Origin: FCB group bacterium
Lineage (GTDB): Bacteria > Fidelibacterota > Marinisomatia > SCGC-AAA003-L08 > JACNLC01
Direction: 5' to 3'
NCBI GenBank assembly: GCA_013152375.1
Contig: JAADGM010000140.1
Span: forward strand, 28,463 to 63,348
DNA: 34,886 nt
Shown: positions 2,913-29,473 of the stretch, one piece after another
Layout: each line of letters begins with the position of its first letter
How positions within the stretch are numbered: the stretch's first letter is position 1
The notes under the pieces: generated by a model
The model's input: only the letters and a program-made list of their open reading frames with translations
Databases searched by the model: none
Told to the model about the DNA's origin: nothing
Translations under genes and position numbers: made by a program

Positions 2913-4235
2913 TCATAAGATCAGGTCCACCAGCAACACAATATCAAGGATTGTCACGACATTATCCTGATTCAGATCGTAACCGGGGCAGACTCCGGAA
3001 AAATTCAGAATGCAGTCGACGATCAGGATCACATCTGTGATGTCGATCTGTCCGTCGCCGTTGATATCCCCGGTAAGTCCGTCTTCAAAAGCGGTAACGG
3101 ATTCCAGGAGTTCTCCGTCAAAATCAAACAGGGTGAGATTCTCCCAGGGGGATTCGTAGACTCCCGTGGAAATCCAGTCCGGAGCCCAATAAAAGAGCCC
3201 GGCCCCGGCTCCATCCGGAATGCTGCTGACTTCACCGATTAGCTGATCCAAAAAATTCCACTGTCCTTCAACGGTAGCAGGGAAACCCTCCAGCAGCTGA
3301 TTTTCCGATCCCACAATATTGTCGGTCCCATCGCTCCACTCCAGTGTCCAGGGGTAGGCGGTTTCCACTATCAGGATCTCTTTGGAATAAAGTTCGTGCA
3401 GGGCGTTCATACTCGTGGAAACCTCCTCCAGTGTTCCATGCCACCAGGGATAGTAAGACAGACCGATGATCTCAAAGTCAGAAATCCGTGGAATCAGTCG
3501 ATCAAAGAACCATTCTGCCGCCCCGTAATTACCCCCGTTGTCGAAGTGAATACAGATCCGGGTTGAGTCACGGGAGGGTGTACTGTCTCTGACAGCCTGT
3601 ATGGCGGTATCCACCAAAATTCCCAGTTGATCCCACTGTATATCGGTGTTGTACGAACCGCAAACCCGCCCGTCATCCCACAGCATCCCGCAGCTGATCT
3701 CGTTGCCGATTTGCACAATAGCAGGACTTGTATTTTGATCTCTAAGAGCATTAACGGCAGCAAGGGTAAATTGATACAGGCTGTCCGTAAGCGATGAAAA
3801 GTCCAGATCAGTCCAGGCCGCCGGTTTTACCTGATGGGCAGGGTCTGCCCAGGTATCGGAATAATGAAAGTCCAGAAGCAGCCCCAGCCCCTGGTCCCTC
3901 GCACGCCGGGCCATCGACAGGACATGAGACAAATTGTTGTAGCCCTCGGCAGGATTGTTCCAGAGCTTGAGGCGAACCATGTTGATCCCATGATCAGTGA
4001 AGATCGTCAGGGCATCCTGCGGCAGTCCGTTCACTGTGAAAATACCGCCGCTGTCCTCTACCCGGTCCAGCAGGGAACTGTCCACTCCTTTTAGCAAAGA
4101 ACCGCCAACACCCCTCAATTGGGCAATAGAGAGGGCAAAGATCAGGCTCAGGACTTTCAAACTGTACCGGGCCTGAAATCGGTCCTTCACCAAGTTTTTT
4201 CTACAAGGACTAAAACCGTTGTCATTTTGTAACAC
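2913..4235 (-). CDS. GH53 endo-beta-1,4-galactanase with C-terminal dockerin
   Basis: Predicted to cleave beta-1,4-galactan (arabinogalactan side chains) outside the cell. A charged leader and hydrophobic segment near residues 25-45 look like a signal peptide. The catalytic domain shows the family signature LLDFHYSDTWADP (about 119-131), the acid/base glutamate in VQIGNE (E179) and the nucleophile in LIVETAYPW (E291), so both catalytic residues are present. Residues about 389-440 form two dockerin-like Ca-binding repeats (GDINGDGQIDITD and a degenerate second copy, DLNQDNVVTILD). The start is GTG with GGGAG 7 bases upstream, 13 bases after the upstream stop. It is the only carbohydrate-active gene recognised here; the dockerin links it to two other secreted proteins in the window. 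Confidence 0.92.
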   Translation of the reverse strand: MLQNDNGFSPCRKNLVKDRFQARYSLKVLSLIFALSIAQLRGVGGSLLKGVDSSLLDRVEDSGGIFTVNGLPQDALTIFTDHGINMVRLKLWNNPAEGYNNLSHVLSMARRARDQGLGLLLDFHYSDTWADPAHQVKPAAWTDLDFSSLTDSLYQFTLAAVNALRDQNTSPAIVQIGNEISCGMLWDDGRVCGSYNTDIQWDQLGILVDTAIQAVRDSTPSRDSTRICIHFDNGGNYGAAEWFFDRLIPRISDFEIIGLSYYPWWHGTLEEVSTSMNALHELYSKEILIVETAYPWTLEWSDGTDNIVGSENQLLEGFPATVEGQWNFLDQLIGEVSSIPDGAGAGLFYWAPDWISTGVYESPWENLTLFDFDGELLESVTAFEDGLTGDINGDGQIDITDVILIVDCILNFSGVCPGYDLNQDNVVTILDIVLLVDLIL

Positions 4236-8712: not shown

Positions 8713-10116
8713 CTATTCGCCGATGATCAGGTTTAAAATGATAATGATGTCCAATACGTTTATGATGCTGTCGGTATTGATATCGGCCGCGTAGAATTGA
8801 ACCGTATCCGGGTCGGCCAGACCCAGGATGTAATTGACAATGATTACCAGATCCTGTACGTTGATCACTCCATCATCATTGGTATCGCCGGGTGTGTAGA
8901 TGAACTGATCTAAATAATCCGTGAGTTGCCTGAGGGTGATCTCGGCGGCGGTTCGGGCGGTATCCCAGTCAATCTGTCCGCCTACATGAATATGACCGGC
9001 TGCCAGGCAGGGGAACTCTCCATAGGGATTTTCTCCCCGATACCAGACGCCGTGATATCCCATGAATTCAGACAGAAACATACCTGCCGTTCCCTCCCAG
9101 TCAACATAGGAATTCAACCCCAGACCAGCTGTGTTTACGGCGCTCACAATGGCTTCTAGGGGCAGATCCGGGTTTCGGACGAGATAAGCCGGGTGGTCCT
9201 GGTCCGGGGGATTTGGAGTGGGCTGATTTGGCGGAGTGTAATCATAAATCCAGTTGGTTCGGTTGACGAGGTTCCATTCCAGTTCCCAACTATGATCTAT
9301 CCAGCCCCGGCTGAAGGTGATGATGGCAATGGGCTGCAGATCTGCCACGATGTTCCAGAAATCTGATGAGGTGTCCTGATAGTCTACTTCGAGGTCACCA
9401 TTTCCCTGTCCGCAGTCATCACAATCCGGGATATCAAAAACCGGGAAAAAGCTTACAATATCGTAACCTCGTCCTTCCCAGTCATCTCCCATCCAGCCGT
9501 CCGGGTTCAGGTCTGGGTTTTGACTGAACTGACGGATCATCTCATTGGTGGGCGGCCAGTAACCCGTTACGAGAATGACCGGGTTCACCCGACTTCTGCG
9601 AACCGGCTGGATTTGCTCTGCCGGACGACTTTTAACGGATACCGGCCGATATGCGGCCAGTCCCTGAATGAAAACATCACCCTGCCGGGGTTCGGTTGAC
9701 GGTTGCACCCATTCGATGACAATATCAGATTCGAAAATGACCTCCGTCATCAGAGTTCCCCCGGCTGAAAATTGCTCCCGGGTATAGGGCCCCAAGAAGC
9801 CTGAACTTTGGGTAAAACGTATAAAAATTCGATCGCCCTCCGTCAGCGACGCTGCCGAAAGAAGCAATCGAAAACCGCTGGAATCAGGGAGTATTAATCG
9901 CATCTGAATCAGACGTTTATCATTATATTGCGAGATTGCCCCGTTTGTATTGAGTGCCACAGGGGACTGAGCGGCAAGTGTCTTAAGCGTTTGGGTCGGT
10001 AATGAATCCGGGATTGGCCAGGCAGGGGCGCCATAGGGGGCTACCTGCGACTGTAGAAAAGTTCCCAGCAGCAGCAGAAAACCAAAAAGCCGCCGGGAGA
10101 ATTGGGATAGTGCCAT
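8713..10116 (-). CDS. Pyroglutamyl-peptidase-like (C15 fold) secreted protein with dockerin; catalytic Cys replaced by Ser
   Basis: 467 residues: signal peptide (1-25), a beta-rich domain (about 55-160), a C15-like domain (about 178-400) and two dockerin repeats (409-467). The middle part lines up by eye with pyrrolidone-carboxyl peptidase: PVILVTGYWPP matches its N-terminal V-L-L-T-G-F-x-P-F strand, AIITFSRG matches the G-Q-A-G-G-R region, EWNLVN (E280) sits at the catalytic Glu, and AGHIHV (H377) at the catalytic His. At the nucleophile the family has A-G-T-x-x-C-N; here it is AGMFLSE, so Cys becomes Ser349. The protein may be a serine-variant hydrolase or a non-catalytic binder. The start lies 6 bases after the ccmD stop, so it may be read from the ccm operon. 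The C15 assignment is a by-eye homology call. Confidence 0.7.
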   Translation of the reverse strand: MALSQFSRRLFGFLLLLGTFLQSQVAPYGAPAWPIPDSLPTQTLKTLAAQSPVALNTNGAISQYNDKRLIQMRLILPDSSGFRLLLSAASLTEGDRIFIRFTQSSGFLGPYTREQFSAGGTLMTEVIFESDIVIEWVQPSTEPRQGDVFIQGLAAYRPVSVKSRPAEQIQPVRRSRVNPVILVTGYWPPTNEMIRQFSQNPDLNPDGWMGDDWEGRGYDIVSFFPVFDIPDCDDCGQGNGDLEVDYQDTSSDFWNIVADLQPIAIITFSRGWIDHSWELEWNLVNRTNWIYDYTPPNQPTPNPPDQDHPAYLVRNPDLPLEAIVSAVNTAGLGLNSYVDWEGTAGMFLSEFMGYHGVWYRGENPYGEFPCLAAGHIHVGGQIDWDTARTAAEITLRQLTDYLDQFIYTPGDTNDDGVINVQDLVIIVNYILGLADPDTVQFYAADINTDSIINVLDIIIILNLIIGE

Positions 10117-27004: not shown

Positions 27005-29473
27005 ATGAAAAATAAATTACTGCTATTCGGGGCAGTTGTAACTCTGATCTTCGCCAGTTACAGCTTAGTACAAGCTCTTAAAAAGCCTGCACATCCACCG
27101 GCGCCCACAGAAATTGTTCTCCGGAACCGGGAACGACAGGACTTCAAGCGGCAGCGGGAGGAATATATCGAGAGTATGCACAAAACGGCCCCCGGTACCG
27201 ACTGGCACCGGATTGATGCTGAAACCCGCAGGCAGAAATGGCTTGAGAAAACCGTTTTAAGGCAAATCTGGAAAAACAGCCATGAGCCGGATCTGGAAAA
27301 ACCCGCCTCCGTGCGCTTCGGCAATCGGGATATCGAAGGCACCTGGTCCGAACGGGGCAGTAATAACCAGTCGGGACGTATGCTGACAACCGCAGTGGAT
27401 TATGAAAACGGCCTGCTGTATTGCGCTTCGTCCGGCGGGAATATCTGGCGTGGCACTCTCGATGGTGAAAACTGGGAGTCCCTCACAGACTATTATCAGA
27501 TCAAGGGGATCAGCCTGCTGCGGTTCGTCAGTACGGCAACTGCAGACAGACTCCTCATCGGCACCAGGGGTCAGCATTTCTATTACAGCGACGACGAGGG
27601 CTTTACCATACAGGAGGCCGCCGGACTGGACAATCTGCAAAACTGGGGATGGACTCAGCGTGTCATCGTCAGAAATGACGACACTCACACAATTTACCTG
27701 CTGTCGACCGAATGGGATTACGCAGCCTGGCAGCAGATTTCAGTCCTGCGGAAATCCACCGATCAGGGCGGGAGTTTTCAGACGGTCTCGATTCTGACGG
27801 AAACCATGTCCGGCAGTTTTGACATCTGGACACCGCGCTATGCAGATGCGGGGGTTTATCTTCAGAATGATAATGAAATTTACAGTATAGGTGAAAATGA
27901 CCTTTTTTCACCCGTCGGCAGTATTCCTACGGCAAACTCGGGGGACAACCTGCTCACCGGTGGCATGAACGGTAATGCACCATTTCTGTACGCCCGGGTT
28001 GGGAATGACATCTTCTATTCGCCAAATGGAGGCCATGCCTGGCAATGGCAGAGTACGGCTCCCACGGGCACATTTATGAACAATAGCTTCAACTGCTCAA
28101 ATATAAACCCGCAGTATGTCTTCATCGCCGGTGTGGAACTATATAAAAGCAGTGACCATGGTGTCACCTGGCAGGTCGTCAACAATTGGTGGGAATATTA
28201 TGGTCAGGAATCCAACCGCCTCCATGCGGATATTCCTGAAATACGCTTTTTTATCACGCCAACAGGAGAGGAGGTGGCCTATGTAAGCACCGATGGGGGT
28301 GTTTATGAGTCTGATGATTATCTGCAGTCAGTCAATAATTTATCCCTCAACGGACTGGGGGTCAGTCAGTACTATTCTACCTACACCACACGCTTTGAAC
28401 CCTATCATGTTTACGCCGGAGCACAGGATCAGGGTTACCAGCGCAATCAGAATGATCAGGGGGGTATTCTGGATTTCGAGCAGGTGATCAGCGGAGATTA
28501 CGGTCATCTGGTCTCCGGAGATAACGGCGCCAGTATCTGGTGTGATTATCCGGGCTTTGTCCTGTTTTATCCAAATGCCACCTCCGGTTCAAACGGACTG
28601 ACCTGGGATTTTGTCGGTTCGGATTATCTGTGGCTGCCGCCTCTCCTGGCCGATCCTTTCGATCCTGAAGTTGCTTATCTCGCCGGCGGGGGCGTCGGTG
28701 GTAATCATATCATCAGGCTGGAGGCATCTGCCGGGTATATCGATTACCAGCAGCTGCCCTATGGTTTTGGCGGAACCGTCTCTGCCATGGCCATATCTCC
28801 CATCGATCAGGCTTACAGCTATGTACTCACAACGGAAGGCCAGTTTTATACCAGCGTGGACTATGGCGGTGAGTGGCAGCTGTCAACCGGGTTCAGCGGT
28901 CCGGGTTCGCATTATTTTTACGGATCCACCATCCATCCCTCCTCAACACAACTGGGCACCGTCTATATCGGCGGGAGCGGATATTCCAATCCGGCTGTTT
29001 ATTTGAGTGAGGATAACGGGATTACCTTCACCCCGATTACAGATGGATTGCCCGGCACACTGGTCTTTGAACTGGCAGCTACGGAAGATGAAAGCATCCT
29101 GTTTGCCGCTACCGAAGCAGGCCCTTACGGCTATGTTCCGGATGAAGGGGTCTGGTACGACCTGGCCGGAATTTTCGCCCCCGATCAGACCTACTGGTCG
29201 GTGGATTATATACCGCAGATCGCCACCGCCCGCTTCGGCACTTACGGAAGAGGAATCTGGGATTTCACGCTGGAGGGCTTCTATTGGATTGAACCCGGAG
29301 ACGTGAATCAGGATGATATCATCAATGTCATGGATGTAATTATCGTTATCAATATTATTCTGGAAAATACGGACCCCTCTGATGAAATGCTGTTTGCCGC
29401 GGATGTTAATGCCGACGGGAATGTGAATATTCAGGATATCATCCTCATCGTGAACATCATTTTGCATCTCTGA
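27005..29473 (+). CDS. Secreted BNR/sortilin-like beta-propeller protein with dockerin
   Basis: 822 residues: signal peptide (1-24), a basic linker, then repeated Asp-box blades (for example YSDDEGFTI, STDQGGSFQ, KSSDHGVTWQV, TSVDYGGEWQL, LSEDNGITFTP), giving a VPS10/sortilin or WD40/YVTN/BNR-type propeller. Residues 765-822 hold two dockerin-like repeats (GDVNQDDIINVMD and ADVNADGNVNIQD), each followed by a very Ile-rich helix. Such propellers bind or hydrolyse glycans or peptides; no sialidase active-site set is clear, so the function is open. The dockerin matches those of the GH53 and C15-like proteins and points to a shared surface or export route. The gene is preceded by a structured leader. 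Confidence 0.85.
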   Translation: MKNKLLLFGAVVTLIFASYSLVQALKKPAHPPAPTEIVLRNRERQDFKRQREEYIESMHKTAPGTDWHRIDAETRRQKWLEKTVLRQIWKNSHEPDLEKPASVRFGNRDIEGTWSERGSNNQSGRMLTTAVDYENGLLYCASSGGNIWRGTLDGENWESLTDYYQIKGISLLRFVSTATADRLLIGTRGQHFYYSDDEGFTIQEAAGLDNLQNWGWTQRVIVRNDDTHTIYLLSTEWDYAAWQQISVLRKSTDQGGSFQTVSILTETMSGSFDIWTPRYADAGVYLQNDNEIYSIGENDLFSPVGSIPTANSGDNLLTGGMNGNAPFLYARVGNDIFYSPNGGHAWQWQSTAPTGTFMNNSFNCSNINPQYVFIAGVELYKSSDHGVTWQVVNNWWEYYGQESNRLHADIPEIRFFITPTGEEVAYVSTDGGVYESDDYLQSVNNLSLNGLGVSQYYSTYTTRFEPYHVYAGAQDQGYQRNQNDQGGILDFEQVISGDYGHLVSGDNGASIWCDYPGFVLFYPNATSGSNGLTWDFVGSDYLWLPPLLADPFDPEVAYLAGGGVGGNHIIRLEASAGYIDYQQLPYGFGGTVSAMAISPIDQAYSYVLTTEGQFYTSVDYGGEWQLSTGFSGPGSHYFYGSTIHPSSTQLGTVYIGGSGYSNPAVYLSEDNGITFTPITDGLPGTLVFELAATEDESILFAATEAGPYGYVPDEGVWYDLAGIFAPDQTYWSVDYIPQIATARFGTYGRGIWDFTLEGFYWIEPGDVNQDDIINVMDVIIVINIILENTDPSDEMLFAADVNADGNVNIQDIILIVNIILHL

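Follow-up and report, generated by a model that had tools for sequence, protein, structure and literature searches.

Does the 34,886-nucleotide stretch of DNA analysed here (hereafter the window) encode an exported relative of the pyroglutamyl peptidases in which serine occupies the place of the catalytic cysteine, and, if so, is the protein an enzyme? Peptidase C15 acts inside cells, where it takes pyroglutamate caps off proteins. Its clan, CF, is described in a review as comprising one family, whose triad is Glu-Cys-His (PMC12445089).

Organization of the gene and its product

The open reading frame was confirmed at positions 8713–10116 of the window on the minus strand and encodes 467 aa. 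The features are given below in window coordinates; residue numbers of C15 are those of the Bacillus amyloliquefaciens enzyme.

8713–10116, minus strand: ORF of 467 aa plus stop, with signal peptide, N-terminal beta module, C15-like domain and dockerin; orthologues of the same layout were found
10048–10116, minus strand: putative Sec signal peptide, residues 1–23 (RRLFGFLLLLGTFLQS, followed by Q24), as read from the sequence
9643–9999, minus strand: N-terminal beta-rich module, approximately residues 40–158, common to trypsin-type secreted peptidases (strands in the model, and HMM)
8902–9585, minus strand: predicted C15-fold domain, residues 178–405 (structure models, Foldseek, hhalign)
9277–9279, minus strand: Glu280, paired with C15 Glu81 (Asn285 is paired with Asn86) in the alignments; 34/34 members
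9070–9072, minus strand: Ser349, at the place of the catalytic Cys144, start of the nucleophile helix (model and alignments); 34/34 members
8986–8988, minus strand: His377, paired with C15 His168 in the alignments, within GHIHVG; 34/34 members
9412–9423, minus strand: invariant CxxC (C232, C235) in a family-specific insertion loop (alignment; model confidence is low here)
8731–8892, minus strand: C-terminal type I dockerin, residues 409–462 (Pfam PF00404, E 2.2e-8; structural match)

The ORF is a real gene under strong purifying selection. When the window gene is compared with the orthologue from the same genus, dN/dS amounts to 0.034 across the C15-like domain and 0.049 across the dockerin, as opposed to 0.345 for the signal peptide together with the N-terminal module; these values are approximate because dS is near 1. 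This constraint is established computationally, and the difference between the C15-like domain and the N-terminal module within the same gene pair supports a hydrolase. The N-terminal residues look like a Sec signal peptide, in agreement with the secretion claimed in the initial annotation; the protein is probably exported through it, and its mature form would begin with Gln (Q24). Almost every full-length relative likewise has Gln at this position.

Fold of the middle domain

The dockerin is the sole Pfam family recognised in the protein, and hmmscan gives no match to PF01470, even up to E 10. Searches of the PDB with phmmer and hmmsearch reach C15 only at E ~0.1, and the NCBIfam value is E 0.12. 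Since the domain could not be placed by sequence searches alone, relatives were collected and structures were predicted. The full-length model (mean pLDDT 73.8) matches 23 C15 entries among the matches listed with Z scores of 13.9–17.3, and the next non-dockerin family, the nucleoside phosphorylases, follows at Z ~10. With the domain model (34 sequences, pTM 0.83), the VIA Z scores for the same 23 listed entries are 16.9–20.2, and those of the nucleosidases, which come next, are at most 11.9. Folds of the same broad class other than C15, the nucleosidases (Z about 11–12), were considered as the closest relatives and were rejected, the C15 scores standing well above theirs. Foldseek relates the domain model to C15 with E values down to 1.2e-10 and a probability of 1.00. 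The profile-profile comparison agrees with C15, hhalign giving E 1.1e-4 and a probability of 57 when the family (34 members) is aligned with ten C15 enzymes. A rerun using first-sequence columns scored 33; the highest of 60 column-shuffled controls reached 19.3, and the reversed profile scored 16. Judging from the models, Foldseek and hhalign, the alpha/beta fold of peptidase C15 that had been proposed from the letters of this protein is confirmed for residues 178–405, and in this computational sense the fold is established.

Active site and substrate pocket

Both hhalign and MAFFT pair E280 with E81, N285 with N86, S349 with C144, and H377 with H168, and MAFFT additionally pairs A344-G345 with A139-G140, F347 with F142, and Y354 with Y149. 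This residue correspondence is likewise established by computation. E280, N285, S349, E350, H355, H375, H377, C232, C235, R270, and R314 are invariant in all 34 distinct members. The nucleophile position is Ser in every one of them and Cys in none, and three further copies that are partial or contain N (L079, L080, and L082) also keep the Ser and the His. The retained Glu280 and His377 and the serine in place of the catalytic cysteine, all noted in the initial annotation, are thus features of the whole family. No other Cys sits at the nucleophile elbow; the C15-like domain has no Cys residues except C232 and C235, which lie in the insertion loop, and C370, which directly precedes the His strand and is conserved in only 32 of the 34 members.

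In the Bacillus enzyme, the pyroglutamyl ring is held by Phe10, Phe13, Gln71, Phe142, and Val143. Three of these, Phe10, Phe142, and Val143, have similar counterparts in Tyr186, Phe347, and Leu348, respectively. Phe13 is replaced by another residue in this family, and Gln71 is either deleted or replaced by Arg270, depending on the aligner. The aligned residues suggest that the pyroglutamate pocket is kept only in part. Glu350 follows the nucleophile at the position of the invariant Asn145 of C15, and His375 stands at the position of C15 Phe166, two residues ahead of the catalytic His. Two long conserved loops, around the CxxC and PTPxPPD motifs, are family-specific and are modelled with low confidence. 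Since these two loops and the loss of Phe13 and probably of Gln71 amount to a rebuilt pocket, pyroglutamate is a possible substrate but not the default one.

The protein resembles pyroglutamyl-peptidase I (peptidase C15; MEROPS clan CF, PF01470) in fold, in the positions of Glu and His, in the A-G-x-[FY]-x-nucleophile motif, in the Glu-x4-Asn spacing, and in the LP ahead of the next helix. Contrarily, it has Ser for Cys, two long family-specific loops and an altered pocket, is apparently exported, carries an N-terminal beta module and a dockerin, escapes detection by PF01470, and is a multi-domain protein of 467 aa, whereas C15 enzymes are small single-domain proteins of ~200–220 aa. Lacking the defining Cys, the protein falls outside C15 and counts as a divergent relative that shares its fold. 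The open-access literature searched yielded no C15 protein that is secreted, fused to a dockerin or of serine type. Separately, a "hypothetical protein" on the Turneriella parva plasmid pTURPA.01 (L089) is homologous to C15 but divergent; it retains the Cys and has a long C-terminal extension.

N-terminal module and dockerin

Residues 409–462 match PF00404 with E 2.2e-8 and 34.6 bits (cut-off 22.9), and in the full-length model they match known dockerins with Z up to 12.5. The segment has the duplicated calcium-binding-type repeat of type I dockerins. The N-terminal module is rich in beta strands in the model, so that the N-terminal beta domain and C-terminal dockerin described earlier are both found. 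Searches with an HMM built from the N-terminal module retrieve trypsin-type proteins with E values of 3e-10 to 1.4e-5, namely L092–L095 from relatives and two proteins of the same genome (contig C121, locus L121). The trypsin fold is confirmed by Pfam for L094 and L095, a dockerin is present on L094, and contig C121 has several dockerins.

These S1 peptidases share the signal peptide and the N-terminal beta module with the present protein, and several share the C-terminal dockerin, but their catalytic domain has the trypsin fold instead of the C15 fold. As the combination of signal peptide, N-terminal module and dockerin is common to trypsin-type secreted peptidases, what is unusual is the catalytic domain alone. 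The architecture, which had seemed unfamiliar, is indeed unusual for C15, but it is what secreted peptidases of this lineage ordinarily carry, and such a shared chassis supports an extracellular peptidase-like role. The dockerin is like those of the type I dockerin proteins of cellulosomes in sequence and fold. Unlike them, the protein does not look like a cellulosomal enzyme, and binding to a scaffold is only a candidate role, given 94 dockerin matches against few cohesin matches. The genome (2.6 Mb) contains six of the latter, and ORFs of contig C11 hold both kinds. The open-access literature searched gave no description of a dockerin-rich system in Neomarinimicrobiota.

Distribution and pyroglutamate context

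Of 245 Neomarinimicrobiota genomes, 39 (16%) carry the family, each with a single locus. A recognisable ordinary C15 (PF01470) is found in none of the 245, while the same profile matches 4 of 14 control genomes; it is also blind to the 39 genomes carrying the serine family. The window belongs to a Neomarinimicrobiota genome: the relatives from the genome-contig scan come only from Candidatus Neomarinimicrobiota MAGs and one uncultured bacterium, and none was found in the plasmids or viral contigs searched. No viral C15 link was found in a viral search that returned no C15 of any kind. One relative (L081, G175 contig C4) is a broken gene copy with in-frame stops.

In ~350 kb of the genome and the window, Gln follows signal-peptidase-like motif sites, selected with a home-made signal-peptide filter, in 10.5% of cases, compared with 3.1% in protein bodies (Fisher p 5e-6). 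The Q-rule is known from Bacteroidetes (PMC5837995), and the enrichment is possibly a partial version of it outside that group. A type II glutaminyl cyclase homologue is encoded on contig C32 of the same genome (L101:1240–2169; best PDB match 6qro, E 2e-52), and 221 of the phylum's 245 genomes have such a homologue. The glutaminyl cyclase superfamily includes aminopeptidases as well (PMC5837995). Exported proteins with N-terminal Gln, taken together with a cyclase homologue, make pyroglutamate ends outside the cell likely.

Proposed function and alternatives

The reading that we favour, and regard as reasonably probable, is an exported Ser-His-Glu hydrolase on the C15 (clan CF) fold, with catalysis as a prediction. 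Ser349 would act as the nucleophile in place of the cysteine, His377 as the base, and Glu280 as the third residue of the triad. The Sec signal peptide would export the protein, and the N-terminal module and the calcium-binding-type dockerin would serve as a generic chassis of the lineage. The catalytic domain would most likely cleave an amide or peptide bond, with an acyl-serine as the intermediate; the hydrolase is probably a peptidase or an amidase. Among the options offered in the initial annotation, namely a serine-type variant, a peptide-binding receptor and a new extracellular amidase, the best fit is an extracellular hydrolase or amidase of serine type, since the triad is frozen in its entirety and so are the active-site loops. 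The fold, the triad paired alike by two methods and invariant in 34 of 34 members, and a single-copy family in 39 genomes of a phylum where ordinary C15 was not found also speak for this reading. Against it stand Glu350 in place of Asn145, the low model confidence in parts of the active-site loops, and the cost of the exchange itself: replacing Cys with Ser in an existing cysteine peptidase usually removes most of the activity, ~10^4-fold for TEV protease (PMC4576821). We give about an even chance to a naturally evolved branch with a serine nucleophile within clan CF, from which only cysteine peptidases are known so far, exported to the cell surface or the medium, that acts on a new substrate or on extracellular pyroglutamate caps.

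The C15 fold might instead serve as an extracellular recognition module for pyroglutamate or another cap, Ser349 being the outcome of lost activity. The exchange of Cys for Ser is a common route by which cysteine peptidases lose activity, and the N-terminal Gln of exported proteins and the cyclase homologue make its putative ligand likely to be present outside. Such a non-catalytic binder, the receptor of the three earlier options, seems unlikely to us, since a mere binder has no evident need for His377, Glu280, and Ser349, all of which are invariant, and since the residues binding the pyroglutamyl ring are the very part that changed. The latter point also bears on a serine-type extracellular pyroglutamyl peptidase, which would uncap exported Q-rule-like proteins or environmental peptides and which overlaps the main reading. 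The C15 fold with its complete triad, the Gln enrichment (p 5e-6), the cyclase homologue in 221/245 genomes with ordinary C15 in 0/245, and the resemblance of Tyr186, Phe347, and Leu348 to Phe10, Phe142, and Val143 in the pocket are consistent with this activity. Nevertheless, with Phe13 replaced and Gln71 deleted or changed to Arg270, we consider it quite unlikely; the cyclase is nearly universal and the family is present in 16% of genomes, so that their co-occurrence is uninformative and can give no signal.

A metal-dependent hydrolase or metal-binding protein, in which Cys232/Cys235, His355, and His375/His377 together with acidic residues would form the site and Ser349 would be structural, is the most improbable of these readings. 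The proposed ligand residues are all invariant, and zinc exopeptidases belong to the same broader fold class. His375 precedes the catalytic His by two residues, and both side chains may therefore face the same side of the strand. However, Ser349 is located exactly at the nucleophile position of C15, at the helix start, a CxxC motif in an exported protein would more often form a disulfide, and the model confidence in the CxxC loop is too low for its contact with His375/His377 to be judged.

If the serine hydrolase reading is true, a strictly conserved natural Ser-His-Glu version would represent a nucleophile switch on the clan CF fold, with which one could test directly how the scaffold of a cysteine peptidase accommodates serine. 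The exported proteins of Neomarinimicrobiota, a marine phylum that is abundant yet almost uncultured, would gain an assigned enzyme, and there may be a link to the pyroglutamate capping of those proteins.

Genomic surroundings

The window contains three dockerin proteins: a GH53 protein (2916–4235, minus strand), the serine-C15 protein (dockerin at 8731–8892, minus strand), and a Sortilin/Vps10-like protein (27005–29470, plus strand). Across the family, no conserved neighbourhood partner was found, and the near neighbours vary between families; in one group a biotin ligase gene adjoins it, apparently by chance. The neighbouring gene convergent with the serine-C15 gene (6652–8670, plus strand) encodes a secreted metallophosphoesterase of the purple acid phosphatase kind, an adjacency that is retained in the same-genus genome only.
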